From the NCBI GenBank assembly GCA_025617745.1, contig CM046861.1:16279563-16343562 (forward strand): DNA of 64,000 nt. Direction: 5' to 3'. The translations under genes were made by a program, and so were the position numbers. This document shows, one piece after another, positions 1 through 58,384 of this stretch (its first letter is position 1; each line of letters starts with the position of its first letter). Origin of the DNA: Heliocidaris erythrogramma. Lineage: Eukaryota; Echinodermata; Echinoidea; Camarodonta; Echinometridae. Below the pieces are notes generated by a model that saw only the letters and a program-made list of their open reading frames with translations, was not told the DNA's origin and did not search any database.

Positions 1-3000
1 TTCATACGAAGTGTAACATTTCGAGAATATGTGCCGTGTTGAAGTTTAAACAGTAAGATCCAGACAACTTGCTAAGCATAGCGACCTATACCATAATAAA
101 GCTGAATATCTCCTCTATTTCATGGTGTAAACAGCTAAGAATATGAAATGTCTTGCGAACATTTATAACACTTTTTCTGCAGAACTTCATTATTGAGTTA
201 CGTGAAGCTGCATAGAATATTGCACTGGTGGTATTGTTCATGCGAAGCGTAATAATACCGAGAATATAGCCGTGTTGAAGTTTAAACAGTAAGATCCAGA
301 CAACTTGCTAAGCATAGCGACTTATACCACGATAAAGCTGAATATCTCCTCTTTTCCATGGTGTAAACAGCTAAGAATATGAAATGTCTTGCGAACATTT
401 ATAACACTTTTTCTGCAGAACTTCATTATTGAGTTACGTGAAGCTGCATAGAATATTACACTGGCGCTATTGTTCATACGAAGTGTAATATTTCGGGAAT
501 ATGTGCCGTGTTTAGGTTTAAACAGTAAGATCCAGACAACTTGCTAAGCATAGTGACCTATACCATGATAAAGCTGAATATCTCTTCTATTTCATGGTGT
601 AATCAGCTAAGAATATGAAATGTCTTGCGAACATTTACAACACTATTTCTGCCGAACTTCATTATTGAGTAAGGTGAAGTCCCGTAATACAGTACGAGCG
701 CTTTAATGCGGAGTGTAATATTTCAAGAATTTGTGCCGTGTTGAAGTTTAAACAGTAAGATCCAGACAACTTGCTAAGCATAGTGACCTATACCATAATA
801 AAGCTGAATATCTCTTCTATTTCATGGTGTAAACAGCTAAGAATATGAAATGTCTTGCGAACATTTATAACACTTTTTTCTGCAGAACTTCATTATTGAG
901 TTACGTGAAGCTGCATAGAATATAGCGCTGGCGCTATTGTTCATGCGAAGCGTAATAATATCGAGAATATATACCGTGTTGAAGTTTAAACAGTAAGATC
1001 CAGACAACTTGCTAAGCATAGTGACCTATACCATGATAAAGCTGAATATCCCCTCTATTTCATGGTGTAATCAGCTAAGAATATGAAATGTCTTGCGAAC
1101 ATTTATAACACTTTTGCTGCACAACTTCATTATTGAGTTACGAAGCTCCATAATACAGTACGAGCGCTCTAATGCGGAGTGTAATATTTCGAGAATATGT
1201 GCCGTGTTGAGGTTTAAACAGTAAGATCCAGACAACTTGCTAAGCATAGCGACTTATACCACGATAAAGCTGAATATCTCCTCTTTTCCATGGTGTAAAC
1301 AGCTAAGAATATGAAATGTCTTGCGAACATTTATAACACTTTATCTTCCGAACTTCATTATTGAGTAACGTGAAGCCGCATGTAATACCGCACTGGCGCT
1401 AATGTTCATACGAAGTGTAATATTTCGAGAATATGTGCCGTGTTGAAGTTTAAACAGTAAGATCCAGACAACTTGCTAAGCATAGTGACCTATACCATGA
1501 TAAAGCTGAATATCTCCTCTATTTCATGGTGTAATCAGCTAAGAATATGAAATGTCTTGCGAACATTTATAACACTTTTTCTGCCGAACTTCATTATTGA
1601 GTTACGTGAAGCTGCATAGAATATTGCACTGGTGGTATTGTTCATGCGAAGCGTAATAATACCGAGAATATAGCCGTGTTGAAGTTTAAACAGTAAGATC
1701 CAGACAACTTGCTAAGCATAGCGACTTATACCACGATAAAGCTGAATATCTCCTCTTTTCCATGGTGTAAACAGCTAAGAATATGAAATGTCTTGCGAAC
1801 ATGTATAACACTTTTTCTGCAGAACTTCATTATTGAGTTACGTGAAGCTGCATAGAATATTACACTGGCGCTATTGTTCATGCGAAGCGTAATAATATCG
1901 AGAATATATGCCGTGTTGAAGTTTAAACAGTAAGATCCAGACAACTTGCTAAGCATAGCGACCTATACCATGATAAAGCTGAATATCTCCTCTTTGTCAT
2001 GGTGTAAACAGCTAAGAATATGAAATGTCTTGCGAATATTTATAACACTTTTTCTGCAGAACTTCATTATTGAGTTACGTGAAGCTGCATAGAATATTGC
2101 ACTGGTGGTATTGTTCATGCGAAGCGTAATAATACCGAGAATATAGCCGTGTTGAAGTTTAAACAGTAAGATCCAGACAACTTGCTAAGCATAGCGACTT
2201 ATACCACGATAAAGCTGAATATCTCCTCTTTTCCATGGTGTAAACAGCTAAGAATATGAAATGTCTTGCGAACATTTATAACACTTTTTCTGCAGAACTT
2301 CATTATTGAGTTACGTGAAGCTGCATAGAATATTACACTGGCGCTATTGTTCATGCGAAGCGTAATAATATCGAGAATATATGCCGTGTTGAAGTTTAAA
2401 CAGTAAGATCCAGACAACTTGCTAAGCATAGCGACCTATACCATGATAAAGCTGAATATCTCCTCTTTGTCATGGTGTAAACAGCTAAGAATATGAAATG
2501 TCTTGCGAACATTTATAACACTTTTTCTGCAGAACTTCATTATTGAGTTACGTGAAGCTGCATAGAATATTACACTGGCGCTATTGTTCATGCGAAGCGT
2601 AATAATATCGAGAATATATGCCGTGTTGAAGTTTAAACAGTAAGATCCAGACAACTTGCTAAGCATAGCGACCTATACCATGATAAAGCTGAATATCTCC
2701 TCTTTGTCATGGTGTAAACAGCTAAGAATATGAAATGTCTTGCGAACATTTATAACACTTTTTCTGCAGAACTTCATTATTGAGTTACGTGAAGCTGCAT
2801 AGAATATTGCACTGGTGGTATTGTTCATGCGAAGCGTAATAATACCGAGAATATAGCCGTGTTGAAGTTTAAACAGTAAGATCCAGACAACTTGCTAAGC
2901 ATAGCGACCTATACCATGATAAAGCTGAATATCTCCTCTTTGTCATGGTGTAAACAGCTAAGAATATGAAATGTCTTGCGAATATTTATAACACTTTTTC

Positions 3001-6000
3001 TGCAGAACTTCATTATTGAGTTACGTGAAGCTGCATAGAATATTGCACTGGTGGTATTGTTCATGCGAAGCGTAATAATACCGAGAATATAGCCGTGTTG
3101 AAGTTTAAACAGTAAGATCCAGACAACTTGCTAAGCATAGCGACTTATACCACGATAAAGCTGAATATCTCCTCTTTTCCATGGTGTAAACAGCTAAGAA
3201 TATGAAATGTCTTGCGAACATTTATAACACTTTTTCTGCAGAACTTCATTATTGAGTTACGTGAAGCTGCATAGAATATTACACTGGCGCTATTGTTCAT
3301 GCGAAGCGTAATAATATCGAGAATATATGCCGTGTTGAAGTTTAAACAGTAAGATCCAGACAACTTGCTAAGCATAGCGACCTATACCATGATAAAGCTG
3401 AATATCTCCTCTTTGTCATGGTGTAAACAGCTAAGAATATGAAATGTCTTGCGAACATTTATAACACTTTTTCTGCAGAACTTCATTATTGAGTTACGTG
3501 AAGCTGCATAGAATATTACACTGGCGCTATTGTTCATGCGAAGCGTAATAATATCGAGAATATATGCCGTGTTGAAGTTCAAACAGTAAGATCCAGACAA
3601 CTTGCTAAGCATAGCGACCTATACCATGATAAAGCTGAATATCTCCTCTTTGTCATGGTGTAAACAGCTAAGAATATGAAATGTCTTGCGAATATTTATA
3701 ACACTTTTTCTGCAGAACTTCATTATTGAGTTACGTGAAGCTGCATAGAATATTGCACTGGTGGTATTGTTCATGCGAAGCGTAATAATACCGAGAATAT
3801 AGCCGTGTTGAAGTTTAAACAGTAAGATCCAGACAACTTGCTAAGCATAGCGACTTATACCACGATAAAGCTGAATATCTCCTCTTTTCCATGGTGTAAA
3901 CAGCTAAGAATATGAAATGTCTTGCGAACATTTATAACACTTTTTCTGCAGAACTTCATTATTGAGTTACGTGAAGCTGCATAGAATATTACACTGGCGC
4001 TATTGTTCATGCGAAGCGTAATAATATCGAGAATATATGCCGTGTTGAAGTTTAAACAGTAAGATCCAGACAACTTGCTAAGCATAGCGACCTATACCAT
4101 GATAAAGCTGAATATCTCCTCTTTGTCATGGTGTAAACAGCTAAGAATATGAAATGTCTTGCGAACATTTATAACACTTTTTCTGCAGAACTTCATTATT
4201 GAGTTACGTGAAGCTGCATAGAATATTACACTGGCGCTATTGTTCATGCGAAGCGTAATAATATCGAGAATATATGCCGTGTTGAAGTTTAAACAGTAAG
4301 ATCCAGACAACTTGCTAAGCATAGCGACCTATACCATGATAAAGCTGAATATCTCCTCTTTGTCATGGTGTAAACAGCTAAGAATATGAAATGTCTTGCG
4401 AACATTTATAACACTTTTTCTGCAGAACTTCATTATTGAGTTACGTGAAGCTGCATAGAATATTGCACTGGTGGTATTGTTCATGCGAAGCGTAATAATA
4501 CCGAGAATATAGCCGTGTTGAAGTTTAAACAGTAAGATCCAGACAACTTGCTAAGCATAGCGACTTATACCACGATAAAGCTGAATATCTCCTCTTTGTC
4601 ATGGTGTAAACAGCTAAGAATATGAAATGTCTTGCGAATATTTATAACACTTTTTCTGCAGAACTTCATTATTGAGTTACGTGAAGCTGCATAGAATATT
4701 GCACTGGTGGTATTGTTCATGCGAAGCGTAATAATACCGAGAATATAGCCGTGTTGAAGTTTAAACAGTAAGATCCAGACAACTTGCTAAGCATAGCGAC
4801 TTATACCACGATAAAGCTGAATATCTCCTCTTTTCCATGGTGTAAACAGCTAAGAATATGAAATGTCTTGCGAACATTTATAACACTTTTTCTGCAGAAC
4901 TTCATTATTGAGTTACGTGAAGCTGCATAGAATATTACACTGGCGCTATTGTTCATGCGAAGCGTAATAATATCGAGAATATATGCCGTGTTGAAGTTTA
5001 AACAGTAAGATCCAGACAACTTGCTAAGCATAGCGACCTATACCATGATAAAGCTGAATATCTCCTCTTTGTCATGGTGTAAACAGCTAAGAATATGAAA
5101 TGTCTTGCGAATATTTATAACACTTTTTCTGCAGAACTTCATTATTGAGTTACGTGAAGCTGCATAGAATATTGCACTGGTGGTATTGTTCATGCGAAGC
5201 GTAATAATACCGAGAATATAGCCGTGTTGAAGTTTAAACAGTAAGATCCAGACAACTTGCTAAGCATAGCCACTTATACCACGATAAAGCTGAATATCTC
5301 CTCTTTTCCATGGTGTAAACAGCTAAGAATATGAAATGTCTTGCGAACATTTATAACACTTTTTCTGCAGAACTTCATTATTGAGTTACGTGAAGCTGCA
5401 TAGAATATTACACTGGCGCTATTGTTCATGCGAAGCGTAATAATATCGAGAATATATGCCGTGTTGAAGTTTAAACAGTAAGATCCAGACAACTTGCTAA
5501 GCATAGCGACCTATACCATGATAAAGCTGAATATCTCCTCTTTGTCATGGTGTAAACAGCTAAGAATATGAAATGTCTTGCGAACATTTATAACACTTTT
5601 TCTGCAGAACTTCATTATTGAGTTACGTGAAGCTGCATAGAATATTACACTGGCGCTATTGTTCATGCGAAGCGTAATAATATCGAGAATATATGCCGTG
5701 TTGAAGTTTAAACAGTAAGATCCAGACAACTTGCTAAGCATAGCGACCTATACCATGATAAAGCTGAATATCTCCTCTTTGTCATGGTGTAAACAGCTAA
5801 GAATATGAAATGTCTTGCGAACATTTATAACACTTTTTCTGCAGAACTTCATTATTGAGTTACGTGAAGCTGCATAGAATATTACACTGGCGCTATTGTT
5901 CATGCGAAGCGTAATAATATCGAGAATATATGCCGTGTTGAAGTTTAAACAGTAAGATCCAGACAACTTGCTAAGCACAGTGACCTATACCATGATAAAG

Positions 6001-6068
6001 CTGAATATCTCCTCTATTTCATGGTGTAAACAGCTAAGAATATGAAATGTCTTGCGAACATCTGTAAC
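1..6068. repeat. Tandem satellite array, 236/237-bp monomer (~26 copies)
   Basis: Near-identical units follow head to tail from the first base. Each contains AAACAGTAAGATCCAGACAA and TGAAATGTCTTGCGAA. Two main variants alternate: one with CACTGGTGGTATT (236 bp) and one with CACTGGCGCTATT (237 bp). From about 2,098 to 5,980 the units are almost identical and grouped in blocks of about 473, 710 and 946 bp, that is 2, 3 and 4 monomers. Units before about 1,620 and the last one are more diverged, with forms such as CTATTTCATGG and AGTACGAGCGCT. The array stops at about 6,068, some 370 bp upstream of the C11orf54-like start codon. Recurrent 76-residue minus-strand reading frames only reflect the repeat unit, whose 237-bp form is a multiple of three. 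Confidence 0.97.
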
Positions 6069-6435
6069 ACTTGTAATACTAGCTTGATTCATTTTGAATT
6101 GAGCGATGTTCCTCGCCGGAAGAACGGTATTCGAATTCTCTCATGAAAGCAATAAATTCCGAATTATTGGTTTGAAATGTTAATAGTTTGGCCCATGCTA
6201 TTTAAGATGAAACGAAGACTATTTTTAGACCAATTTTCACCCTCTACAGATTCCAAATTTAGTAAATGAATGATACTACATGATCTTTTTAATTTAGAAA
6301 TATTTTTCTGTTTTCTCTTGGACGTTTCGGCGACACCCTAATTGGTCGCTGAACTTGTGGTCGCCAGATTCAAGCTGCCCTCAGTCTCTCCTCCCACTAC
6401 GCGAAGGCGAAATCGGACTAGAAAAGACAGGCAAA
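6069..6435 (+). promoter_or_regulatory. Presumed promoter and 5'UTR of the C11orf54-like gene
   Basis: This is unique sequence between the satellite array and the start codon. An inverted CCAAT box (ATTGG) lies at 6,341-6,345, about 95 bp before the ATG. The stretch from about 6,330 is more GC-rich and contains CG dinucleotides (TTTCGGCGACA, ACTACGCGAAGGCGA), unlike the AT-rich surroundings. No clear TATA box was seen, which fits a TATA-less housekeeping promoter. The transcription start cannot be placed by eye. Confidence 0.45.
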
Positions 6436-6508
6436 ATGGCAGCAAATACCGGTATTCCAGTTACTCGCAGAGCCATGGTTGTTCCAGACTTACATGAGCT
6501 ATCAAGTG
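6436..6508 (+). CDS. C11orf54: C11orf54-like exon 1 (residues 1-24)
   Basis: The ATG lies in AAAATGG context. It encodes a short N-terminus ending VPDLHELSS, then donor G|GTGAGT. The exon ends in phase 1 and the next codon (Val) is completed by exon 2. Confidence 0.85.
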
Positions 6509-9500
6509 GTGAGTTTTTAGTGTAAGATTTATTTTCTGTACACGAATTTTCGAAACGGGTTGTAAAGTTGCTTTCACATATTTTGCGTTCAGTCCCATAC
6601 GTGCGTAATTTTGTTAGATCAAACCTGAAGTTATAGAGCAGAGACTGAGAGTGAGATAACTCCAGCCTCCAGGGGCGGTATTCTGAAAACTGTGTTATCT
6701 TTTGTGTTAAGGGAAACTGTGTTAATTGTCATAACAAATTGAAACTGCGCGCAATAAACACTAATCATTGGTGCTTGCGCAGATGTCTCTGTTAACTTTA
6801 CGCGCGCACAGCCATCTTTGCGCAGTCATTAACCAATGACTTGTCCTGATTTTAATTTGTTATGACAATTAACATCGCTTTACTAACATAAAAGATAACA
6901 CCGTTTTCAGAATACGGCCCCAGGGCTCCAGGTACGAAAAACCAAAGGTGTCCTCGCCAATTCGTTTGGCTAGTGGCATCGCTTAATTTCGGCAGGTAAG
7001 ATAGAAATTTGTAGTTATAGTTATATTTCAAGAGAATTAGAATTAGACTTAGAGAATCCAGCAGGCTCTTTGATTTTACGATTTGAATTAGGAATTTGGT
7101 GATTATTTTGATGAAAAAAAAAGGAATTTCCTTGCGGAGCAGATCTTTCCCTGTGCTGTACCATCGATTCAAATGACTCGATCGTACGGTGCGTAATGTG
7201 TACCATGTACCGTCGCTGACTCAATCGCGTGGTGCGATCGAGTCATTTGAAACAACGGTACAGTACGGGGAAAGATCGACTCGGCAAGGAAATTCCATTT
7301 TTTTTCATCGAAATAATCGTCAAATCGTAAAATCAAGGCAAAGAGCCTGCTGGATAGTTACAGTAATTCTTTTGAAATGTAAGTACAAATTTCTATCTTA
7401 CCTGCCGAAATTAAAGGAGAATCAACCCCTAATTGCAAATTTACTTATTTTGGAAGGTGTAATATATTCCTACTTATTGGCCTAAATCATTTTCTAATAA
7501 GATATCAGAAAAAGGGAAAAATAAAGATATTCCAACAGCCGGTATCGTCTCCTACTCATTTCCATGGGGGCTGCCATTTTCTTATGGGCGGCCAAAAGGG
7601 TCAAAATTAAAACTTTCAGAAATATAGACAACCACAGAAATAAAGACAACTCCAGAAATAAAGACAACTCCAGAAATAAAGACAACCACAGAAATAAAGA
7701 CAAATTCAGAAATATAGACAACCACAGAAATAAAGACAAATTCAGAAATATAGACAACCACAGAAATAAAGATAACTTCAGAAATAAAGACAACCACAGA
7801 AATAAAGACAACTTCAGAAATATAGACAACCACAGAAATAAAGATAACTTCAGAAATATAGACAACGACCGTGAATGAAGACAACTTCAGAAATAAAGAC
7901 AACTCCAGAATCAAACGAAACGACTGAATTATAGTCTATCGCGAATATGAAAACAGCACGCAAAAAGTAGAGTCGAACAGAAATATCGTCGAGCTTCAGA
8001 AAAGAAAAACTTTTGAGAAATATACTAAATATGAAAGGACAAGAGAGGGCGAAATATATTAAATCTTATCCTCGGCCAGGGTTAGTCCGAAAGGGTGCGT
8101 TGACTTTTTTTTCCTTCTAAATACAGTGTATTATTATCATTATTATTGTTATCAGCGGTTCCAGGATTTTGTAAAGGGAGGGGGAGGGCAGAAATGCAGT
8201 GCTGTCATCAGGGGCGGATCCAGGATATTGTAACAGGGGGGGGGGGGGGGGGCACAGAAATGCAGGTCTGTCAGGGGGGGGGGATCCAGGATTTTGTAGA
8301 AAGGGTGGGGGGGGGCATGGAAATGCGGACTGTCAGGGGTGGATCCATGATTTTGTAGAAAGGGGGGGGCATGGAAATGCAGGTTTTGTCATCAGGGGTG
8401 GATCCAGGATTTTGTAGAAAGGAGCCGGGGGGGGGGGGGCATGGAAATGCAGGTATGTCATCAGGGGTGGATCCAGGATTTTGTAGAAAGGGGGGCATGG
8501 AAATGCAGGTCTGTCAGGGGCAGTGGCAGAAAAGTGGCAGTGGCAGATTTACGGATCCGGGCCGGGATCCGTAAATCTGCCACTGTCACAATTATTCTGT
8601 TAGAAAAAGTCCAAACGCACACTTTCGGCAAAACTGTTAGGGGATCCTCGATCTGCCCCTGATGACCTACCTGCATTTCCATGCCCCCCCCCCCTTTCTA
8701 CAAAATCCTGGATCCGCCCCTGATGACAAACCAGTTGTGTGCCCCCGCCCCTGACAGACCTGCATTTCCATGCCCCCCCCCCCTCCTTTCTACAAAATCC
8801 TGGATCCACCCCTGATGACAAACCTGCATTTCCATGCCCCCTCCCCTTTCTACAAAATCATGGATCCGCCCCTGACAGACTTGCATTTCCATGCCCCCTC
8901 CTTTCTACGAAATCCTGGATCCACCCCTGATGACAAAACTTGCATTTCCATGCCCCCCTTTCTACAAAATCCTGGATCCGCCCCTGATGACAAAACCTGC
9001 ATTTCCATGCCCCCCTTTCTACAAAATCATGGATCCGCCCCTGACAGACCTGCATTTCCATGCCCCCTCCTTTCTACGAAATCCTGGATCCACCCCTGAT
9101 GACAAAACTTGCATTTCCATGCCCCCCTTTCTACAAAATCCTGGATCCGCCCCTGATGACAAAACCTGCATTTCCATGCCCCTTTTTCTACAAAATCCTG
9201 GATCCGCCCCTGACAGACCTGCATTTCCATGCCCCCTCCTTTCTACAAAATCCTGGATCCACCCCTGATGATACACTGTATTTAGAAGGAAAAAAAAGTC
9301 AACGCACCCTTTCGGACTAAGCCTGGCCGAGGATAGGATTTAATACATTTCGCCCTCTCTTGTCCTTTCATATTTAGTATATTTCTCAAAAGTTTTTCTT
9401 TTCTGAAGCTCGACAATATTTCTGTTCGACTCTACTTTTTGCGTGCTGTATTCATATTCGCGATAGACTATAATTCAGTCGTTTCGTTTGATTCTGGAGT

Positions 9501-12500
9501 TGTCTTTATTTCTGAAGTTGTCTTCATTCACGGTCGTTGCCTATATTTCTGAAGTTATCTTTATTTCTGTGGTTGTCTATATTTCTGGAGTTGTCTTTAT
9601 TTCTGTGGTTGTCTTTATTTCTGAAGTTATCTTTATTTCTGTGGTTGTCTATATTTCTGAATTTGTCTTTATTTCTGTGGTTGTCTATATTTCTGAATTT
9701 GTCTTTATTTCTGTGGTTGTCTTTATTTCTGGAGTTGTCTTTATTTCTGGAGTTGTCTTTATTTCTGTGGTTGTCTATATTTCTGAATTTGTCTTTATTT
9801 CTGTGGTTGTCTTTATTTCTGGAGTTGTCTTTATTTCTGTGGTTGTCTTTATTTCTGAAGTTATCTTTATTTCTGTGGTTGTCTATATTTCTGAATTTGT
9901 CTTTATTTCTGTGGTTGTCTATATTTCTGAATTTGTCTTTATTTCTGTGGTTGTCTTTATTTCTGGAGTTGTCTTTATTTCTGTGGTTGTCTATATTTCT
10001 GAATTTGTCTTTATTTCTGTGGTTGTCTATATTTCTGAAAGTTTTAATTTTGACCCTTTTGACCGCCCATATTTTCTTGCTGATTTGGAGTTGTACATGA
10101 ACCATTGAGAAATGTTCCAGTCAAGAAGATATTTTGAATCCAATACCTAAATTGCTTTTCTTCATAACCTAAAATACCATATGTGACGAAAAATATAAAG
10201 TGGGTGTTTACATGTATTATAAAAATTAAATCTTTATAATGATATTTTTAAATTGTCTGGTTTTGCTTAACAAAAATCTATTTTCTTGGGTTTGCCAAAC
10301 AGAGCAGAACATAATATATGCAGCATGCATTCTGACTTTTCAAATCCATTATCCGAAAGCAGGTGAATGCATAGCTTGCCGCTATAGATGCTCAGGGAAG
10401 AAACATCCATAAATTTGAATTAATTTGCTCCGTCCCATACGTCACAGTATCGAGAAAATAGATTTCTATTAAGCGAATATCGAAATATACAGAAATATAT
10501 ATGGAAATCTGCAGTTTAAAAATAAATTAACATATCTATTCAATATTTTTAATCTAAAACTGGTTTTTAATTTTGAAAAGGGCAATTTGGCATTTGGATT
10601 AAGAAAAATCTTCATGTACACATAAAAAAAATGGCAGCCCCCATGTACTGCTAGCAGACGATACATATTGGGAGCAGATGATAAATTTTGCTCAGAAAAT
10701 CTTGATTCGTATCGATCTCGTATATTTTGACGCGAAGCCATATAGTCCAACAAGTAGGAATAAATAACACCTTTGAACGCTATCATCTGTATTTTTGAGC
10801 GTAATTCTCCTTTAAGCGATGCGACTAGCCAAACTAATGGGCGAGGATGATACACTGTATTTAGAAGGAAAAAAAAAGTCAACGCACCCTTTCGGACTAA
10901 GCCTGGCCGAGGATAGGATTTAATACATTTCGCCCTCTCTTGTCCTTTCATATTTAGTATATTTCTCAAAAGTTTTTCTTTTCTGAAGCTCGACAATATT
11001 TCTGTTCGACTCTACTTTTTGCGTGCTGTATTCATATTCGCGATAGACTATAATTCAGTCGTTTCGTTTGATTCTGGAGTTGTCTTTATTTCTGAAGTTG
11101 TCTTCATTCACGGTCGTTGTCTATATTTCTGAAGTTATCTTTATTTCTGTGGTTGTCTATATTTCTGGAGTTGTCTTTATTTCTGTGGTTGTCTTTATTT
11201 CTGAAGTTATCTTTATTTCTGTGGTTGTCTATATTTCTGAATTTGTCTTTATTTCTGTGGTTGTCTATATTTCTGAATTTGTCTTTATTTCTGTGGTTGT
11301 CTTTATTTCTGGAGTTGTCTTTATTTCTGGAGTTGTCTTTATTTCTGTGGTTGTCTATATTTCTGAATTTGTCTTTATTTCTGTGGTTGTCTTTATTTCT
11401 GGAGTTGTCTTTATTTCTGTGGTTGTCTTTATTTCTGAAGTTATCTTTATTTCTGTGGTTGTCTATATTTCTGAATTTGTCTTTATTTCTGTGGTTGTCT
11501 ATATTTCTGAATTTGTCTTTATTTCTGTGGTTGTCTTTATTTCTGGAGTTGTCTTTATTTCTGTGGTTGTCTATATTTCTGAATTTGTCTTTATTTCTGT
11601 GGTTGTCTATATTTCTGAAAGTTTTAATTTTGACCCTTTTGACCGCCCATATTTTCTTGCTGATTTGGAGTTGTACATGAACCATTGAGAAATGTTCCAG
11701 TCAAGAAGATATTTTGAATCCAATACCTAAATTGCTTTTCTTCATAACCTAAAATACCATATGTGACGAAAAATATAAAGTGGGTGTTTACATGTATTAT
11801 AAAAAATTAAATCTTTATAATGATATTTTTAAATTGTCTGGTTTTGCTTAACAAAAATCTATTTTCTTGGGTTTGCCAAACAGAGCAGAACATAATATAT
11901 GCAGCATGCATTCTGACTTTTCAAATCCATTATCCGAAAGCAGGTGAATGCATAGCTTGCCGCTATAGATGCTCAGGGAAGAAACATCCATAAATTTGAA
12001 TTAATTTGCTCCGTCCCATACGTCACAGTATCGAGAAAATAGATTTCTATTAAGCGAATATCGAAATATACAGAAATATATATGGAAATCTGCAGTTTAA
12101 AAATAAATTAACATATCTATTCAATATTTTTAATCTAAAACTGGTTTTTTAATTTTGAAAAGGGCAATTTGGCATTTGGATTAAGAAAAATCTTCATGTA
12201 CACATAAAAAAAATGGCAGCCCCCATGTACTGCTAGCAGACGATACATATTGGGAGCAGATGATAAATTTTGCTCAGAAAATCTTGATTCGTATCGATCT
12301 CGTATATTTTGACGCGAAGCCATATAGTCCAACAAGTAGGAATAAATAACACCTTTGAACGCTATCATCTGTATTTTTGAGCGTAATTCTCCTTTAAGCG
12401 ATGCGACTAGCCAAACTAATGGGCGAGGACGACTTTCGTTATTTGTACCTGGAGTTAAGACTGAGAGAGCTGCCTTTTTCAATAGTCATAAAAAAATGTC

Positions 12501-15500
12501 TGTGCATTTCAATACTACTCCAATCATGAGTTTATTTGCTTTAATTTGCATTAATTTATATTTATTGATTATTGAAGAAGAAGAAGAAGAAGAAGAAGGA
12601 GGAGGAGGAGGAGGAGGAGGAGGAGGAGGAGGAGGAGGAGGAGGAGGAGGAGGAGGAGGAGGAGGAGGAGGAGGAGGAGGAGGAGGAGGAGGAGACACTT
12701 ATAGATGTACAAGCTTATCTGAAGATAAGCTTGTACTCCATAATAGTTTTCATGGGTGAATAGGCTTCAATAGCTTTTGTGTGTATCAGTGGGCTATTTT
12801 AGTATAGATCATTCATACATGTACAGTACATGAGAGGAAAATAATTCATTAAAATTTCACTTTCAACTCTGAATCCCCAAACTTGTGGCATAGTAAGAGT
12901 TGAAGAGTCCCTGAATCAGGTAATCTAGCAAATTTAAGAAAATTAAATCTTGCTTAGAGCAAATGTTCAAGAAATCCTGGATCCGCCACTTGCTGCAACA
13001 GTGAATGTTGGACAGTATCCCACATAGGCAAGGGCCTATGAGTGGGAAAAAGAAGGAAGAAGAAAGGAGGAGAAGAAGAAGAAGAAAAAGTAAGAAGAAA
13101 GAAGGAGAAGAAGGATAAGGAGAAGAGGGAGAAGACGAAGAAACAATAATTGTTTTGTCAGCTGAGTACGGGACGACAGTTAAATTCAGCGCCTGACGAC
13201 GATCTGATTGCACCACACCACCTCCTCTGTCCACATTCAGGTTGTTCATCATCAGCCATTACACCCACCCAGTGGTGTGTAGGGCAGCAGGTTGTTCATC
13301 ATCAGCCATTACACCCAGTGGTGTGTAGGGCAACAGGTTGTTCAGTGACCTATCAAACATGCTTCAAATTGGAAGCTCTTTCACATGAAACCAAAATTAA
13401 AATTACGCTCACCCTGATATTTTTTTGTTATAAGAACCTGCTTTTACATGTAGTTTGCAGAAGAAAAGCAAGCTTTTTATTTGATAGATATTAGACTCAA
13501 TTTTTAAATTTGCTCTGACACTGAAGGATTAACTAAGATATAGGGTGTACCTCTAAATAAATTGTACTTTGTACAGTTTAGTCTTAGATTCAAACATTCT
13601 ACGTACAATTGCAAAGATGCCAGTGTTTAGATCACCCATTTTCGCTTGGTTTTACTTGCAGTTTTGCAGAAGGGTTTGAAGATCTGTTTTGAATCTGCTG
13701 AGGTCAACGTCGTAGACTGCCCAGATTTGACTCAAAAGCCTTTCACCCTTGCAGCCCCAGGTTAGCTTAAGTTTTTTTTCAAATTTCAATGTGATGATTA
13801 CAAGCTTTAACTTGACTCAAAGAAGGCTATATAGTGATAATATCCAAACCTCTTTAGGAGTTCATACATTATTATGCAAGTATATTATATCATATTATAT
13901 ACGCATTATACATAAACAGAAAACTATTATGCAATAACGTGCCCAAATGGGCCGATTATTTCCATTTAAATCAAAATTTATGTACTTCTTAATATGTCAA
14001 AAAAAATATATGTAAGAATTGAGGAGAATGTACAAAGTGAACATTATTAATGATGAGATGATGTTGTATGCAAAAAACTTTTATTATAACTTAATAAGTG
14101 TTTCAACAAAATAAGTTAGCTGCACGGTGCAGACGTAAATAATCATATCTGATTGATACACGTCTGTAAAAACCCAATTACACACACACGTGCATTTTCG
14201 ATTTCCCTTTAAGTTTGGATGAGCTTGTACTTTTTAAAATTTACCATGGAGGTAATAATTCCAAAGTTATGATTTCTTTAATCTTATTGCAGGAATTTGT
14301 GGGAGTCCACGTCTTGCTGATGTGGGTGGTGTACCATACTTAGTTCCTTTGGCTCAGATAGAAAAGGTAAATATTTCATTGGTTCCTACTCAGACTAATC
14401 TAAATCAATTGGATTACAGTTTCCACTTTCCACTGATATGTGAAAGGTTAAGTGTCAATCTCTAATGTCCATATATTCATGTAGATTACTGTAATTATGT
14501 AACAATGAAGAAACAAAATTATTTTGGGACATGAAATGAAAATGAGAAATTTATTTTACAGAGACAAGTTTCAGTAGTTTCATTTAGTTACAGAATTCTT
14601 TTTATGCTTTTGTTCAGGATGAAGAGGTTGACATTTGGCACCGTAAATATGAGTAGACCAACTCGGAGGACTTATGCAGGGTTTAAAGAGAAGGTTGAGT
14701 TCTGGGATAGGTGAAAAATAATTTGTGAGCTTTCTTATTCCTTTTCTGTCATTTTGGAAGAACATTGTAGGAGAAATGTCCCCTGAAAAGGATTGCTCTT
14801 CAAATGCACTCATATTCGAAATAAGACGAGAAATGGCTGAAGTGTTTGGGCCGAACATTTATGCCACATGTGTGTGCAGTCCCATATACCCATATCTGTG
14901 TGCAGTAATTGTGCTTTTCAGCAAGATTGGGTTAATTTCTTTATTATTTTGATAATTCCATAACCTCACAGTATACACCAATTCTAATGTAGACACTATC
15001 AACCATTCCAAAAAGCTTTGAGACAGCTTCTTTCACAATGTAATCGTACTATCAGAACTCAACTTTATCTTTAAACCTAACCTAAAGTTAGGCGGATTTT
15101 GAGACTATGGGCCATTTTGAAGAGATATAAATAGTTCTATTCACATCAAAATAGTGAAGAGAAGCCTGCAATTCTAGGCATACATGATGAAAGTGAAAGT
15201 AAATGATTGGATAAGAAGTAATCTCCATTAAAATGCATCAAAAAGGAAATTGTCTTTTGGAATAGGTTTTTGGTTACATGTATAGTTTCCTCTAAATTTC
15301 CTCTGAAAATGATTTACAAGATTATACATGTACTAAAAGACAATGGAATTGGACCTTGTGGAAAAAATCGAGAGTGGCTACACAATTTATCCAAATACTA
15401 CCTACTTCTACAATTAGAGTGCAAATATCACTGGCTCAAGAACATTTCTATTTCATAGCCAGGAATGCCAGACATTATGGACATGATTTGAATAAAGCAT

Positions 15501-18500
15501 ACATATTTCAGTCTATGACCATGATTTTAAATAGACTATCCTTCAAAAGGACTGCCTTAGTTTTGGCAGTGATAAGAAATACACATGTCTATTGAACTTG
15601 AAAAGGTTGACTTATGGCACTGTATGTGTAACCCAAACCAGGAAGTCTTTCATAAAGCTCTCACTTTGTTTTAATAGATACAAGCAGGATATGAGAAGAA
15701 GAGTCATAAGTTTGTTCCCATCTCTTAAAAATAAACTCAAAATTGTCCATTCCTAAAAAGTAAGAATAAATCAAAGTCCTAATTGAAGTAAAAAGTAGCC
15801 TTTGTCAGTATGATTATATGATATTTTTTTCATTATTTCCTGTTCTAAACAACATAGTGCTTGCAATAGCCTTGAACTTTTTTTTGCATTTTGGTAGCAG
15901 GTATTTGTTTCTAGAGAGTAATTGAAACTTGAAGTGAGCAGACTGATAAGCCAAACCCAAAGCACTTTCACTTTCCTTCATAATAATAAAAAAGAGAGAT
16001 AGAGAGCAGAAATTAATTCTATTTAATATGCATCACTTTTGTCTGTTAGCATTTTACGAAGAGTGATTGTGGGACAGAAACAAAAACTTAATATGTTTCA
16101 AAATGATGTAAATGAATAACAGTTTTCAAAATCACTTTGTGCTCATTAGAAAAGAAAGAAAAGAAAGTATGATATAGTTTTGAATATTGCAGTATGGCTA
16201 TAAATAAAAACAATAGACCTAAATCAAGCATACAGCCCTTCATTTATAGATTTTGAATATAAGAAGTCTTTCCTTGACTACCCCAACTTCACCACAAAGG
16301 TCACAAACATTGACCGAAAATGAACTTTCAAGAGTCAAATTAAGAGTTTCAACTTTCAACTCCTTCTTTCATCACTAGATTTGGCAGAACCGTTTCTCAT
16401 CAGAAACAAACTTTCCAGTGCACTTATTTTCAGTCAAGACATGTAGCGCACCATTTGAAATTCTTTGGCGGGATTCACTGCGCACAGCATGGAAGGGGTG
16501 GTCAGACGTTAACAATAATGATAAACTATATGCATTTACAGTGAACCTGTCTATAAAGACCGCGCAAGGGAGACAAGAAAATCAGTCTTTATGAACAGGT
16601 GGTCTTTACATACAGGTTCCTTTAATACACATTTCAATGGGAAACAGTTTTCAAGGGAAACAAAACTTGTGGTCTTTCTATACAGGTGGTCGCTAAAGCA
16701 GGTTGGACTGTATAATGTAACAATAGCAATAACGCTAACAGTGGTCCCACCTAAAAAAAATTAAATTCTTCTGGGTTTTGTCAATCAAGCAGACTGGACA
16801 CTGGTACAGCTGATCTGATGTCACATGTCATGAGTGGAATAATTGGTTCACAAATATTATTATCGTTGAGGTCTTTCCTAAGAAAATCCCTCGCCGAGTG
16901 ATCCCAGAGAGACAATAAAATCATCATTAGTATAAATCGTTTTGGTGAGACCTACACGTAAACAACTGGGAAGCAATTTTGGAATGATTTATCATTATTG
17001 TTATCAATCGAGTCTAGCCAGCCCTTTAAGATGTGTGAATGCATATATATCTCTCGGATTCTCTCCCATTCTCCTTATAGCAATACAACTTAGATACAGT
17101 TGCAGAGCAGGTTGATCTTCCAGGTGCCTTTGTGATTGGAGCTGGGGCCGGTCCCTACGCTGCCGTCGGTACCAACAGTGAGGTAATACAGGATGCTCTG
17201 TATGGGCTCTATTGTGGGTTGTCATCTGTGTATCACTCCAATGTCTTTTCCCTTGGATAGGAGGTGAAATGCTGGTCCCATGTGCAGGACAGCCTTACAA
17301 TAGGGCCAGACAAATTCAAGAACCCTGCTATATCCACTATGAGAACCTGCTACACTTCTAATAAAAGAGTAGGGTGAAAATCTCATGCAGTGGTACATCT
17401 GACTAGACTTTACAAAGTCCTTTCACACTTCCACGCTTGTAAAATAGTAGGATTCCAGGGGTTAAGTTCATCAAACATATGGTGCATGAATATGAATATA
17501 TGTAAAAAATAGATGTATGGTAAAAATCAACTGCACCTTATCATAAATGCTGAAATGCTGTTTCACTGTCTTGAATATAACCGTTCTAGATGTTGAATTC
17601 TTGCTGTTGGCCTCTACAGACTTAAAAATACAGTGGAAAAAAAGTATAAAGGGACATTTTTGAAAGTTTGTTACTGGTACCAGAATTAAGCAAAGGCCCT
17701 ATCAACGAACCCATGCATGGGCAGTACTTCAAAGCCCATAAGTGGCATTGTGATGTGGCTAAAACTGCAAAAAGACATATGTAAGCAGTTGCGATAAGAG
17801 ATCTAATACACATGTTTTTGTGGTTGCAGATGATAGCCAATGTGAAGACCAAGTCAGCTGACAGCGAGGGAAACAATCAGACCCGCCTGTCGTCCATCAT
17901 TCCAGAAGATGGCTCCTTCTGCCTCAAGCACAGCCCTTGCAGGGATTTCAACCTCCTGGGAAATTTCCTGGCTTCTGAAGGAAAACCTGGCAAGGTACAA
18001 ATAGCATGGTTTAGTTTTGGGGCTCTGCGCGCGTGTGACTGGATCCTATCCATAGAGTAACATGCATGTAACTCTATGATCGTATGCTACTATCTTCCAT
18101 GTTTTGAGCATGTGCAGATCCTTGAATCACGTTGGTCTCTTTGCTGGTCCATCGGCATCGAGAGGTCTATCCTCCTCAGGGGCCCCACTCACAGGCCTAG
18201 CTTTTTGGGGTCCCAATTTGCATCATGTCTACTTGTCATGATTGCTACGTCTGATATTTTAATAAGTTGAATTGAATTGAATTGAAAAGAATTGAATTAG
18301 TAGTGTGGCATGGGGGGGGGGGGGGGGGTGGCATATGCATCCTTCAGTATACCGTAATGTAAGTCGTGGCGCACCCATTATAATACAGATTCATTGTTGT
18401 AGCGACCCATGTCGACTGCCCCAATCTCTCCAGTGTGTAATGAATGGGTGCGATTGCCTCCCAGATATTGTATCTAAATAAACAATAAACATATATGTGG

Positions 18501-21500
18501 TGTTTCGCTTGCTGCCGATGAAGTTTGTTTCCAAAGAGAATTATCTACTGGGCTTGATTGATTTCTGCTAATTTTATTTTTTAAAACTAGAACTTCCTCT
18601 GTGTCATATTTTCTATTTATTGATGTAACAGAGATTAAGTTTCATAGATGTTGGCCAAACTATTTTTATGCATGGAAAATACTTTTAAGTTATCTTTGTT
18701 CAAAGTTGGCTGTCTTGTCGAGAATGCTATGGTCCAGTCATGGCACCCAATTCCTACAATACACAAAGCGTGACATTGGCAGCCCAGTAAGTGCATTACA
18801 TGGTGCGTATGCGCAAGCTCGCAAAGATGATGCAATTGTCAGATAGCTAACAGCGTATGGTTTTGTAGCGCCATGTACCAAGTGAATATTTTTACAACAG
18901 AGTGATGTATCTCTGATTAAAGGGCAAACCAACCTTTGTAAAAAGCTGATTTGTGTGAAAGAAGAAGAATAAGAGAAAGTGGATTGTGAAAGTTTGAAAA
19001 AAATCGGACAAAGAATAAGAAAGTTATGAATGTTTGAAAAATGAAATCACTACATCTATGTTAATCTCAAATTGGCAATTTGGTGAATCGATTGTGATGT
19101 ATTCATGGTCAACTCTCCTATTTGTCGCACACCAAAATATTATTAAATTCCGGTTTTCTCTTGAGTATCTATTCCCTCAGGGCAGTACTCAAAATATATG
19201 TAGATAGCATATTGTTATAACTCCTCCAAAAAGAAAAAAATCCCATTGAGTTGTACGTTTTGAAAAATTGATATTTTAGTCACTTTGTGTGTTGGAGCAA
19301 ATGGGAAAGTTGTCCACCGCTACATCACAGTGTCGTACCGATTCGGCCAATTTCAAATTCCCATATGAATAGTGATTACAGCTTTTAAAATATCATAATT
19401 GTCTTATTGCTTGTCCGATTTCCTTCAAACTTTCACCAATCTGCTTCTCTTATTTTTCTGCTTTCTATCAGAACAACTTGCCAGTAAGGTTGGATTTCCC
19501 TTTAATCCTTCATTTGCAAGATGATGTGAAGCTGTGCGTCACCACTAGTGTAATGTGTGGCAAGACTGGAGCAGCAGAAGCTCTGCCGAAGCGCTGCAGT
19601 AGCTTTCGCACCATACATGTATAAGCAAGACGCAATGTCTTAGGTGAATTTATGCACAACTACTTTCAGCATCGAATGGTGGGTGATTCCTCATCTAATA
19701 TGGTATTTTCTGAAAATTGTTTATCCAAAACTGGCAAACCCTGCCACGACGGTTTGGTGGAAAAAGAGAGTAAGAAAAAAGTGAAGAAGAGAGAAAGAGA
19801 AAGGGGGAGGGCAAAAAAATGCGAAGAGAACATGACAGGGCCCCTTCCCCACCCTTTAGATTCCTTGTTCACATTTCATCCACCTAGTAAGACTGGTGCT
19901 CCACCATGCTGCTAGAGCGCCCTCAGTGGCTTAACCCACACAATGCCATTGTTGTTTATATTAGGATCTTCTCATCGATGTTATTGTGTAGGATTTTGTA
20001 CAGTCGTCATTGTATTTTTCTATATTTGTCAACTGAGCAGAATTACCTTTTCTACCACTAGACAATTATGCTTAAAGATAATATCCAGTTTTGGTAGCGA
20101 AATTTTTGTTTTTCCCTAGCTCCTACCAAAACAAAGTATATGTAGGCTATAAAACTTCAAGAGAACCTATGTTCATAGTTAGCACATTTTGTTTATTTTT
20201 GTTTAATAATTTGTACTTAGATTAGATATCTCAACTGGTAAAATCTTTCATTATTTAAATGCTATAGCATGTAGTCGAGATATTTGAGAAAAAACTTGTT
20301 TCACAAGTAGCATCATGTTTTAAACTCATTTGTCTTTCTTGTTAAGAACCTTTCATTTCCACCTGTTGACTACAGTAACTGAATTCGGTCATTCCCATAG
20401 GATTGACACAGGAACCACTCTGTTCCTGTAGGCAAAGGGTTAATTCTGAAATCTTATTTTCATACCATCAAATCAAATTCAGGTGCTGGAGGTTGTTGCA
20501 GGAGCGTGTGTCATACACCCCAACTGACATCAGGCTCAACCACCTTTGGAACATCACAGTCGCAGGAATATCAGTAGCAATGATATTCTATCAATAGCAG
20601 TGATATTGATGATGATGATGGCTTCTTGTATAGCGCCGGTATCCGCCTATGCTGGGCGCTCATGGCGCTTGCTCTAGAAAGAAAGAGCAATAGCAATGAT
20701 ATTCTATCAGTAGCAATGGTATTCTATCAGTAGCAACGATAGGCTATCAAAAGCAACGATAGTCTATCAATATCGATAGCAACGATATTCTAGCGATAGC
20801 AATGATATTCTGGCGATAGCAGCAACGTTCTAGTGATAGCAGCGACATTCAAGCGATAGCAGCGACATTCTAGCGATACCAACGATATTCTATCAATAGC
20901 AATGATATTGCAGTAATCGAGCAGTTCCTTTAAGCAATGGGTTAATTCAACAATCTTGTTTCCATACACTAAAATTTTATCCAGGTGCTGGAGGTGAAAT
21001 GCAAAGCCAGACGAGGTCCTGACAATTTTGTTTCAGTAATGCGATATACCCTTCACAAGCATTATGGAAAGGACAAGTTTTTAGGATTAGGAGGTGTTTT
21101 TATCATCGAAGAAGGGAAGGCAAAGATACACATAATGGTGAGTGAATTGAGAAGCCAAGCTTCTTGTATGCTTTTTTAAAAATTCAATCTTATGGTAATA
21201 TTTGACCGATCTCCGCAAAATTTTGCACAGACCTCAAGAATCATGTAAAGAACACAAATCCATCGTTATTTTTATGTAAATCTCTATTTTTTTCATTCAA
21301 TATTAAAATTTAAGCAAATTATACGCATAAATATACATTTTGATTATTAATCAGGTAAAGAATGGCCTTGGAGATGAAATTTTAATGCAATAAATTCTTT
21401 TTAAACCTTTAAAACATTATTCCATAACAATTTTTTGAAAGTGATCTCAATTCTTATGTTCTATTTCATATGTATTTCTTTGTTTTGCAACTTTAACTTT

Positions 21501-29454: not shown

Positions 29455-30180
29455 CTACTAGGTCGAGCGTGCTCGCACTGATTTTTGACAAGCTTTTTTC
29501 CATTCAGTTCTATTCTCCATGATCCTTGGGAGTTCCTGCCTTGGTAGACAAGTGTCCTTTTCTAGCTGATCTATGTTAGTCATTGCTGGACGCCCCCTGG
29601 TGCGTTTGCCCCTTGAAGGTTCCCAGAAGAGCGTTTGTGAAATGATTTCACTCTTGCTCCTCCAGCAATGACCACTGAAACTAAGGCGGCGTTCTCCCAG
29701 GCTGACTGAGATTGGTGTCATATCCACAGGAAAAGCCAACTTCAAAATTTCAAGTGATGAAGGCACAAGGCCCTTTATTTCGATATAAGAAGAAGATCCG
29801 ATATAATATAAATAGGCACTGAGAAGCACACGGTCTGGTGGGTTAGTTGAAAAGATCGAGGAGCAATATGGCGGCGTGTGCATTCGAGCGAATCCTACAA
29901 CGGGTTTGACGGCTATACCGCGATCTGTGCATTGGGAATATGTATGAGCCTTCTACGTCTTTAGGAGTTCTGTGGTCATATAGATACAACTCGATATTAG
30001 TCATATTGTCCCTCCTATTGACATTCAATGCTGCTCTCAAGAGTCTGGTATAGCAGCCATCCAGTTGTTTTTCCAGGTTATTTGTCAGTGTCCAGGTTTC
30101 TGATCCATAGAGCAGTACAGTTTCCACTGAAGCCTTCAAGAATCTGACTTTCAGTTGCCTATTGAGGTTAGATTTCCAAA
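29455..30180 (-). pseudogene. Truncated non-LTR retrotransposon, C-terminal Pol fragment
   Basis: Minus-strand frames at 30,139-29,843 and 29,883-29,458 read VLLYGSETWTLTNNLEKQLD then GCYTRLLRAALNVNRRDNMT, and later RRLSFSGHCWRSKSEIISQT, LFWEPSRGKRTRGRPAMTNI and DQLEKDTCL. These are the LYG(S/A)E(T/S)W, RRL.F.GH..R and RGRP landmarks after the reverse-transcriptase core in many invertebrate non-LTR retrotransposons. The two parts are in different frames, so at least one frameshift is present. The catalytic core and 5' end are absent. It is a dead 5'-truncated copy. Confidence 0.85.
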
Positions 30181-31676
30181 TTACTGCCAGTAAGTTCTTG
30201 ACTTGTTTCGACTTTTCCCATCAGCAGTACAATTCTCTCCCTCATGAAGGTTGTACATCATGAATTTAAAATGAAAAAAAAACAAACAAACAACAAAACA
30301 AACACCAGAAACAGAAAGAAATGAAGAAAAAAGAAGTAGATATAGCACCCAAAAAGCAGCAAACCATGCTTCTTTTGTTTAATAAATGAATGTCATGTAG
30401 AATGAACTAATGCTTTTAACCAATTTATGAAAAATCAGTGATAAAATTTGATCTTGAATTTAAACAGTGAAATAAGAGAAAAGAATAGACCATACGGGAA
30501 TTAAGGAATCCTTTAAGTAATTGACATGATAGTATTGTTATATATTAAGTGAAAGCCTTGTGGATTGAAATAAGATCTTGTAAAGATATTACATGCAGTA
30601 ATTGCTATGTGTACGTTAGTGCATTGAATTTACTATCATTACATTGTATAATATGTGCAATTACATAAAACGTCTTTTGAGAATAAACAAAATCGTTTTC
30701 GTATAATTCAGATTGAAATGAATATCCTTGATATTTGTCGATGTACATAGATTGCAGAATTTGCTGGAAATTAGATATTCCTAAAAGAATGAAGAGGGAT
30801 GCATAATTTTTTGTATTAAATAGTGATGTACTGTATTTTTGTGTACTTTGAGAGCAATTGAATCAAAGATTCATGGATCAAGATAATTATATTGATTAAA
30901 ATTATATTGCTTGCCAAAAGGTTGAACTTTACAAAATGAGTCTGATTTGTTTTATTTTATATTCAGATGTAATGGATTTGTTGAGAGAGAGAGAGAGAGA
31001 GAATTGAATCAATAGTCGGCCTATATAGAGCAGAAAGTAGCAGAAGAAGGATTGGGAGTATATCATGTGAGATAGGGTTATAGGATACCAACAAATTTTG
31101 GTGCCTGTGAATTCACGTATCAATTTAATCTATACGGATTCAAACTACTGCGAATCTGAAGCTCCATATCAATCACCCACGTTTTAGTGACGTCATAACC
31201 TACGTCACAGATAACGACGCTGCAAATAAAATAGGTAAACTCTGATTAGCAGCTAATCATCCTTTCACTAATTTGTCAATATTGAGGGATTCATTCTTAT
31301 TTATTATTTTTTTTTTGGTTGTTGCATTGTTTTGTTTTTATTCCTCAAAATTACATTTCTTCCCACACGAAACGTTTTCCATAGACTGTACTTACGAGAA
31401 ATAAACATAATCATGGAACAGGAGTTTATTATTTGATAAGCTATCATAATTCACAATTTCATGATTTACACCACTTCATGTTTATGATTCACACAATTAC
31501 ATAACGTGAAACACTGTTTCAGAACAAAACATTTATATCGTAAACAAAATATATTATTTTCTCGATGTAAATTTGAACTAAAACGGAATGTAATGATGTT
31601 GGGTTCATTTCTAAATTGCCGAACAAAGGTTGTATTTCACCATCAAGTTAACCTGGCATAACATATATGCAGTCCA
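30181..31676. other. Intergenic, AT-rich, no gene seen
   Basis: It contains an A-rich AAACAAACAAACAA stretch (about 30,280) and a (GA)n run at 30,980-31,000. No coding sequence or repeat family was recognised. Confidence 0.6.
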
Positions 31677-34435: not shown

Positions 34436-34593
34436 TCCAAGACCGATTGAATCAAATTAAAGAAGAAGTAGCCACAGTTCTTTTCCGGGAGTTTCATTAA
34501 AAAAAAAAAACACGCACCAAACGTGCACGCTACGACCCATATAACTTTTGACATAAAATACTGCACATACGGCCGATTATTGAACTTGTTAAA

Positions 34594-35041
34594 ATGGTCT
34601 TAGGTAAAGTTCTAGCACATTCTGGGGTATCCAAACCCATCCCATCAAACGCCATGTCAATTTTACGATTCCTGCTTCGGATCAGCACCGAAACCAACCG
34701 CCAGACGATCCTCCTTACCGTCGCTGGCGTCTTCCTGGCCCTTCTCACCCACATGCTTACGACGATGAGATACGGTGGTCACCGACGTCGACGATTACCA
34801 CCAGGCCCCACCAACTACCCGTTCGTCGGGATGCTGCCTCTCCTGGGCACGGAAGACCCGGGGAAAGCCGTCTTGGAACTGTCGAGGAAGTTTGGACCTG
34901 TCTTCTACGGGAGGTTGGGGAACTTTGACGCCATTTTTCTGAATGATTACGAGAGCGTCAAAGAAGCTTTCTCGAAGTCGGGAGACGCTTTCAGCGACCG
35001 ACCTAGGGTTGCAGCTTTCGAAACCTACGGACAAGGAAGAG
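34594..35041 (+). CDS. CYP2-like exon 1 (residues 1-149)
   Basis: ATG in AAAATGG context; an alternative in-frame Met lies at 34,654 (residue 21). It carries the anchor, LPPGPTNYPFVGMLPLLG and RKFGPVFYGRLGN, ending YGQGR then donor G|GTGAGC in phase 1. A run-on frame through the intron to 35,305 also stays open but has no P450 similarity. Confidence 0.88.
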
Positions 35042-58290: not shown

Positions 58291-58384
58291 ACCACACACA
58301 AATAAGTGCCGCCCGATCGGCACCAGCCTCCTCTGCCCCCTGTGTCAGACAGTATATACTGTATGAACGCTTGACAAAAGTCAA

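Follow-up and report, generated by a model that had tools for sequence, protein, structure and literature searches.

A probable stack of nested DNA transposons with an IS3EU-type fold-back core in intron 1 of a sea urchin C11orf54 homologue

Results

The window analysed is a 64,000-nucleotide stretch of the Heliocidaris erythrogramma genome (GCA_025617745.1, contig CM046861.1). The host gene is a C11orf54/PTD012 homologue (DUF1907); its last exon matches 1xcr with an E-value of 1.2e-25, and the hand-joined exon peptides match PF08925 with an E-value of 1.2e-99. A candidate exon 1 (6436-6507), followed by a GT donor, lies upstream of the repeats and another exon lies downstream near 13661-13762, which places the repeats in intron 1 and agrees with the intronic location given in the first-pass annotation. 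For the host gene the whole stack is an intronic insertion, and the exon peptides on either side read through.

The outermost component is a short inverted-repeat element, the left arm of which (6657-6982, plus strand; TAACTCCAGGTAC...GCATCGC) is split by a MITE, while its right arm (12398-12457, minus strand) ends in GGAGTTA; the two arms are 86% identical over 56 aligned bases. Its true outer limits, both TAACTCC, lie at 6657 and 12457, and not at 6926 and 12454 as first annotated. The position 6926 is an artefact, because the inserted MITE 1 (6666-6925) is flanked by CTCCAG twice (6660-6665 and 6926-6931) and the second copy was taken as the end. MITE 1 is self-palindromic (70%), its uninterrupted site is visible in the right arm and related sequence is found at two other loci (L026 and L040). 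The outermost element is flanked by a candidate 9-bp target duplication (AGAGTGAGA, 6648-6656; AGACTGAGA, 12458-12466) with eight of nine bases matching, a level reached by 20 of 100000 composition shuffles and also, when GA-rich places of the window are paired, by 1214 of 98873 pairs; support for this duplication, with its one mismatch in GA-rich DNA, is moderate. The arm itself is dispersed: 108 places in the genome, three of them in the window, lie within two mismatches of a 33-base pattern (reversed control, 0), and among the places listed there are ten inverted pairs, which measure 239-524 bp across the matched stretches.

Two further MITEs belong to the stack. MITE 2 (6987-7410, end TTTCGGCAGGTAAG) sits in the left arm between TTAA at 6983-6986 and TTAA at 7411-7414 and is self-palindromic (75%). 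The other is a TTAA-flanked MITE of about 902 bp, all pieces of which are on the minus strand: a left piece (7415-7582), a first copy of the right piece together with part of the outer arm (10072-10847) and a second copy of the right piece (11652-12393). Four intact copies of this MITE were read elsewhere (L041-L044). The 164 bp at 7419-7582 are identical to two of them (100%; L041 and L043) and close to the others (99.4%, L042; 98.2%, L044), and over about 747 aligned bases the right piece is 99.6% (L041 and L042), 99.5% (L043) and 96.9% (L044) identical. All four lack the fold-back core and are uninterrupted through the site that it occupies here, so that the empty site GCCATTTTCTTGCTG is found in 4/4.

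The core is a fold-back transposon of 2489 bp (7583-10071) with the ends TATGGGCGG...CCGCCCATA. It is bounded by a perfect 6-bp target duplication, TTTTCT, at 7577-7582 and 10072-10077, which recurs in a duplicated arm at 11652-11657. From the outside inwards, the arms consist of a 34-bp terminal inverted repeat (7583-7616, plus strand; 10038-10071, minus strand), an array of 18-bp tandem units (7617-7910, plus strand, about 15-16 units; 9492-10037, minus strand, 29 units), an inner domain (7912-8134, plus strand, 223 bp; 9268-9491, minus strand, 97% identical to the left) and, innermost, GGATCC units arranged in a block (8160-8495, plus strand, units of about 59 bp; 8745-9271 within a right block drawn at 8644-9271, minus strand, units of about 57 bp). 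The mirror order of array, inner domain, GGATCC block and hairpin meeting point reported for the inverted arms is real, and the stretches 7615-8134 and 9268-9787 are 98% complementary over 520 nt, far beyond chance. At the meeting point there is a perfect inverted repeat of 21 bp with a 6-base loop (8538-8585), so that the palindrome noted earlier exists and its size is 48 rather than 46 bp. Beside it is an asymmetric centre (8586-8643, minus strand) that holds a diverged third fragment of the inner-domain end (local alignment score 34, reached by 0 of 500 dinucleotide shuffles). The centre (8558-8660) also matches many places (34) that are not among the listed fold-back loci, for which reason the GGATCC/centre module was probably captured from elsewhere. 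None of the five ORFs of the region has a Pfam match at 0.01, and scans of viral contigs and of genome contigs gave 0 matches each.

The right arm is doubled. A first unit of about 1580 bp (9269-10847) is followed by a second (10848-12429; core part to 11651), which carries a further 18-bp array (11072-11617); the direct copies 9267-10850 and 10846-12432 align with 1582 identities, 2 mismatches and 3 gap columns (99.7%). Long arms of this kind would provoke local tandem duplication, of which the doubling may be an example. The alternative, that the doubling is an assembly error, is unlikely but has to be taken seriously: the units are almost identical, single-base homopolymer gaps account for three of the five differences and inverted repeats are difficult to assemble. 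Against it, another locus (L025) has a duplication of arm plus flank with a flank identity of 98.7%, and C19 has a 5058-bp tandem repeat that includes part of a core (99.3%), although both could have the same assembly problem. An error of this kind is compatible with the nested arrangement proposed below.

The family to which the core belongs has about thirty copies and is characterised by the 34-bp ends (TATGGGCGGCC...), the 18-bp array, the 223-bp domain, the GGATCC units and the hairpin centre. Twenty other loci were fetched as the best matches to a query of array and inner domain; rearranged or old copies are under-represented among them because of this selection. The inner domain was matched, in whole or in part, at 20/20 of these loci, which were chosen by that query, and the full mirror order of array, inner domain and GGATCC block is present at 15. 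The tandem unit is 18 bp long in 592 of 641 units, and copies differ in the number of 18-bp and of approximately 57-bp units in their arms. Across the genome the end sequence gave 34 exact 30-base matches and 45 exact 18-base matches (reversed control, 0 in both cases), and all 45 adjoin 18-bp arrays. Allowing up to two mismatches raised the number of matches to 245, with 58 for the reversed control; two of the near-matches listed were sampled over 501 bases each, and of these one contains a degenerate array and the other no array.

Both ends could be placed at 22 loci, which were picked by their ends, and TATGGGCGG..CCGCCCATA is present at all of them. The 6-bp duplication is perfect at 17/22 and matches at five of six bases at three more; L021 (4/6) and L032 (1/6) lack it. 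Duplication lengths of 4, 5 and 7-10 bp gave a perfect match at 0/22. What had been proposed as a check, namely several loci with common ends and target duplications, is thus borne out by the core. The features of a fold-back family are present, in that long inverted arms contain internal tandem repeats and shared ends with duplications occur at many places. The suggestion that the locus contains a fold-back family therefore stands for 7583-10071, where ends, arm order and 6-bp duplications recur, and fails for the outer layer and the ends first assigned.

Discussion

The TU fold-back elements of sea urchins have modular arms that comprise an outer domain of short 15-bp tandem units and an inner domain; their middle also occurs elsewhere in the genome, and their target duplications are 8 bp. 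The arm layout of the core is similar to this, whereas its unit is 18 bp and its measured duplications are 6 bp. In the available parts of the descriptions, Tm1 (Mutator/Phantom, root-knot nematodes) resembles the core in its composite TIRs, tandem units of about 14 bp in variable number and non-coding copies, and differs from it in duplications of mostly 9 bp, in its ends and in having a known transposase-encoding copy (PMC3169594); Tetris of Drosophila virilis has a three-domain TIR with tandem repeats and no coding capacity, but units of about 220 bp and duplications of 8-10 bp (PMC4079207). Galileo, as far as the portions of PMC3573991 at hand describe it, likewise has long TIRs, their length increased by tandem repeats and by the recruitment of inner sequence, with unequal unit numbers in its arms, but belongs to the P superfamily. 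The Galileo tandem repeats are said in the same portions to hold transposase sites (PMC3573991), whereas the 18-bp unit of the core resembles the 34-bp end no more than shuffled sequence does (score reached by 3351 of 5000 shuffles with strict gaps and by 1154 of 5000 with lenient gaps), and it was rejected as a copy of that end.

The IS3EU superfamily is indicated by the TA..TA ends and the 6-bp duplications. The consulted excerpts describe IS3EU elements as having TA..TA termini with TSDs that are usually 6 bp (PMC10045372), and as having TIRs of more than 30 bp that end in TAYGG..CCRTA with 6-bp TSDs, a wording that derives from fungal families (PMC12730594). The core compares well with IS3EU/GingerRoot in its TATGG..CCATA ends, its 34-bp TIR and its 6-bp duplications, and differs in carrying 18-bp arrays, an inner domain and a middle module as fold-back arms, none of which is mentioned in those excerpts. 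The core is best read as belonging to a fold-back family that is non-autonomous and of the IS3EU type. Its transposase would be supplied in trans, recognise the 34-bp ends and join them to target DNA with the 6-bp stagger reflected in the duplications. Neither a transposase nor an autonomous relative was found; every one of the 45 exact 18-base end matches lies next to an array.

That the core was instead moved by the transposase of another superfamily (Mutator/Phantom, P or an integrase-like one such as that of Polinton), its IS3EU likeness being coincidental, appears improbable. Most fold-backs do seem to be Mutator elements (PMC4079207), Tm1 has arrays of about 14-bp units (PMC3169594), Polinton duplications are likewise 6 bp (PMC10045372), each according to the sections available, and no transposase was found for the core. 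The same sections, however, give 8-10 bp as the duplication length of Mutator-type fold-backs, Tm1 and Tetris included (PMC3169594, PMC4079207), as opposed to 6 bp in the core, perfect at 17/22 loci, and the ends of the core match the TAYGG..CCRTA pattern of the fungal families (PMC12730594, in the excerpt consulted).

Should the assignment to IS3EU be right, yet another superfamily has given rise to fold-backs. The balance tips somewhat towards this being the first fold-back family on IS3EU-type ends, in which the design of Galileo, TU and Tm1 would have evolved independently; its two arms would form separate lineages, its middle would have been acquired from a different dispersed repeat, and arms would tend to be duplicated together with adjacent host DNA, as seen at the window, L025 and C19. 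No fold-back element linked to IS3EU or GingerRoot was found in the parts of the literature surveyed; Repbase lay outside the survey and the family may be recorded there.

In the inner domain, the two arms are inherited along with the element and not corrected against each other. The mate arm is strictly the nearest relative in 0/27 arms, and identity within a locus (0.959, 14 pairs) equals that between loci (0.958, 580 pairs). The left arm of the window groups with the right arm of L021 and its right arm with the left arm of L021. Hairpin-driven gene conversion within each element, which would keep the arms alike, is hard to reconcile with these values and is very improbable, even though the left and right arrays of the window share a unit order: the inner 15 units of the right array keep the order of the left array, with differences at one unit type (outer copy) or two (inner copy). 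Should the IS3EU assignment hold, the family of about thirty copies, in which left and right arm lineages can be told apart, would allow the evolution of fold-back arms to be tested directly.

It is highly probable that several independent DNA transposons are stacked at this locus, within intron 1 of the C11orf54 homologue, around a non-autonomous fold-back core of the IS3EU type. The short inverted-repeat element, which is dispersed in the genome, would have inserted first; a target duplication of its own is likely. The MITE of about 902 bp then entered the central TTAA of that element, as the intact copies elsewhere show, and the fold-back inserted into the MITE and made its 6-bp duplication, as the empty sites show. 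The left arm was split further by two more MITEs, and the right arm was probably doubled by the tandem duplication. That a single three-layered fold-back spans 6926-12454 and moves its terminal segment, 18-bp array and GGATCC block as one unit, as the first-pass annotation supposed from the mirror order in the window, is scarcely credible: the outer segments are parts of two different inverted-repeat elements present elsewhere without the core and are carried by 0/20 other fold-back loci (blastn, E up to 1e-3, about 10 kb each), the segment adjoining the core has 38 further scored matches elsewhere, at 99% over about 168 bases, and continues there as an intact MITE in 4/4 copies read, and the outermost arm is found in small inverted pairs. 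The arms do resolve into independent insertions as regards the outer layer, while the interior represents a true fold-back family. The locus shows that nesting can build a convincing 'layered fold-back', and empty sites within an abundant MITE are a clean test for nesting.

The repeat units were also compared with other sequences. As copies of the outer ends the 18-bp units were rejected, the score being reached by 40-288 of 500 shuffles in eight outer-arm comparisons. For the GGATCC units, a resemblance to TIRs had raised the idea of a hAT origin; no 8-bp duplication was seen by eye at the edges of the block, and such an origin is not claimed. The 18-bp unit has a weak likeness to the inner domain, with a score reached by 22 of 500 shuffles.

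Architecture and host gene

The region 6600-12700 was read and then compared with itself. The inverted arms, 18-bp arrays and GGATCC units which the first-pass annotation had assigned to one foldback element with three-layered arms (6926-12454) are real, but a single element is a misreading of this repeat structure: the outer layer is a nesting of unrelated elements around the core, a fold-back transposon at 7583-10071. The inner 15 units of the array together with the inner domain are 98.6% identical between left and right arms (511 identities, 7 mismatches), whereas the outermost 56 bases are 86% identical and the segment between these and the array is 72% identical with many gaps; this contrast between layers first pointed to separate elements. 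Two copies of the right arm are present, ~1580 bp apart.

The stack lies, as annotated, in an intron of a conserved gene, namely intron 1, most of which it occupies. Peptides translated from 6436-6507, 13661-13762, 14292-14366, 17108-17191, 17965-18000, 20985-21137, 22759-22872 and 23302-23472 (translated stretches, not full exon borders) correspond to the C11orf54/PTD012 protein (matches to 1xcr and PF08925). The 1xcr match starts downstream of the exon-1 peptide, and exon 1 is a candidate, recognised by a start codon, a GT donor site and its location. A 237-bp satellite (1-6072; ~26 units, ~94-95% identical) stops ~360 bp before candidate exon 1.

The core is a dispersed fold-back family

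The genome (1.06 Gb, 26 contigs; the window is C9:16279563-16343562) was searched with 301 bases from the border of the array and inner domain, and the best 40 of 265 first-look candidates were scored; opposite-strand pairs were common among these. Twenty of the 40 places were fetched with their flanks. The same arm order, array, inner domain and GGATCC units followed by the reverse, recurs in 15 of the 20, while L027, L031, L034, L035 and L039 are partial or rearranged within the fetched stretch; in L023, 500 fetched bases are N. The window's outer segments were found in none of the 20.

Outside most arrays is a 34-bp end, TATGGGCGGCCAAAAGGGYCAAAATTAAAACTTT, with variants; departures were seen on the right side of L033, in L034 and on the left side of L040. 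Genome-wide there are 34 exact 30-base matches to this end and 45 exact 18-base matches, at 27 places, with none for the reversed control in either case, and an 18-bp array is present at each of the 27. Allowing one mismatch adds places (e.g. L032, L034, C4:17.47 Mb and C11:19.91 Mb), and the family is thus put at about 30 copies, a lower bound.

Both ends were in hand at 22 loci (the window, L021-L030, L032, L035-L040, L048, L051, L053 and L054, the last being the same place as L031); L033, L034, L046, L047, L049, L050 and L052, with a single end, were left out. Target duplications are present: the flanking six bases are identical at 17 of the 22. At L025, L029 and L051 a single base differs; L021 (4/6 bases) and L032 (1/6) show no match. 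At other lengths from 3 to 10 no perfect match was found at the 22 loci, except at L027, which also matches at length 3.

IS3EU elements are described with TA..TA ends and duplications usually of 6 bp (PMC10045372), and those of fungi have TIRs >30 bp ending TAYGG..CCRTA (PMC12730594). The core shares the end type, TIR length and 6-bp duplications, although the TAYGG..CCRTA definition is a fungal one. The core is thus best described as a fold-back family whose ends resemble those of IS3EU; because the transposase is missing, its placement as IS3EU-like is a putative one made on ends and duplication length only. As far as the papers searched show, the family is new.

When as many as two mismatches are allowed, matches to the end number 245 (58 in the reversed control). 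Two near-matches were sampled. L055 (C20:28128150-28128650) has a related end and, behind it, a degenerate 18-bp array (~80%) that is interrupted by a different, abundant repeat: of 1086 first-look candidates, 38 of the best 40 match the last 216-234 bases of L055 at 97-100%. L056 (C21:10003280-10003780) has the same end type with one mismatch and no array behind it, and is possibly a relative or a chance match.

The outer layers and a proposed order of insertion

With 12230-12457 as query there were 1146 first-look candidates; the best 40 comprise both copies in the window and 38 further places. All 38 are 99% identical over ~168 bases and begin at TTAA, without the outermost bases. Four copies of this ~902-bp MITE were read (901-903 bp, TTAA to TTAA). 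The site GCCATTTTCTTGCTG is intact in all four, where the window has TTTTCT-core-TTTTCT. The window's pieces are 98.2-100% (left) and 96.9-99.6% (right) identical to these copies, which suggests that its MITE copy, and hence the core insertion inside it, is young.

The outermost arm is a third, separate family, with 108 places genome-wide that have no more than two mismatches, 3 of them in the window (control 0), and at least 10 inverted pairs whose matches together span 239-524 bp from one outer edge to the other. The window copy has a loop reduced to TTAA, the target used by the ~902-bp MITE. The candidate duplication AGAGTGAGA/AGACTGAGA, within GA-rich DNA, is plausibly the element's own; an alternative is the slightly offset perfect 10-mer AGACTGAGAG, which was reached by 9 of 100000 shuffles and by 923 of 98873 GA-rich pairs.

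From the nesting, the outermost element would have inserted first, the ~902-bp MITE second, into its TTAA, and the core third, into that MITE; the ~1580-bp duplication, containing pieces of all three, would be fourth. Two further MITEs have no fixed place in this order: MITE 2 (6987-7410) used the TTAA that bounds the ~902-bp MITE on the left, and MITE 1 (6666-6925) split the left outer arm.

Evolution of the arms and centre

The comparison of inner domains took in the 35 arms that cover 190 bp or more of the query. The mate was strictly nearest for none of 27 arms, and mean identity was 0.959 within loci (14 pairs, the window counted twice) versus 0.958 between loci (580 pairs). The window's left arm groups with the right arm of L021 and its right arm with the left, which indicates that L021 is a sister copy in the opposite orientation. 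Between these two cores, identity is 96.9% over the bases that align, and gaps reach 340 bases. Array length is very variable, up to 40 units per arm (641 units over 33 arms of at least 3 units; rough counts from a simple border walk that stopped early in some arms, such as in L023 and L030). Exactly 18 bp was the length of 592 of the 641 units, and five unit types account for 471.

Searching with 140 bases of the centre produced 331 candidates. Among the best 40, six are at known fold-back loci and 34 are away from all those listed, their match starting at ~8558; none of the 45 exact 18-base end matches is near these 34. The middle may therefore be a dispersed module that the fold-back has captured, although the 34 places, known from the centre match, might contain decayed arms. 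A third piece of the inner-domain end, in diverged form, also lies in the core centre (score reached by 0 of 500 shuffles).

Arm duplication is not confined to the window. At L025 the right arm occurs twice, and the flank is repeated after the second copy (98.7% identity, 519 aligned bases); a tandem repeat at C19:31.92-31.94 Mb (offset 5058 bp, 99.3% over 4299 aligned bases of the fetched stretch) contains the left part of a core. In L031/L054, at this place, three left ends follow one another, with the left part of a core copy and its flank every ~5.05-5.13 kb. With three such cases, the fold-back may itself provoke duplication; assembly error is an alternative explanation.

Other features of the window

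A second tandem repeat (45743-54492), also of period 237, forms three arrays, which sit inside repeats that are longer (1.6-1.8 kb) and 95-98% identical, and blastn found no likeness to the first satellite. Inverted copies (44185-44933 and 58366-59116; 90% over 770 aligned bases) lie on either side of this region. On the minus strand at 29461-30220, two overlapping frames resemble, by eye, decayed reverse-transcriptase-type sequence, with no Pfam match at 0.01. A cytochrome P450 reading frame is found at 34552-35607 (PF00067, E 3.3e-27).
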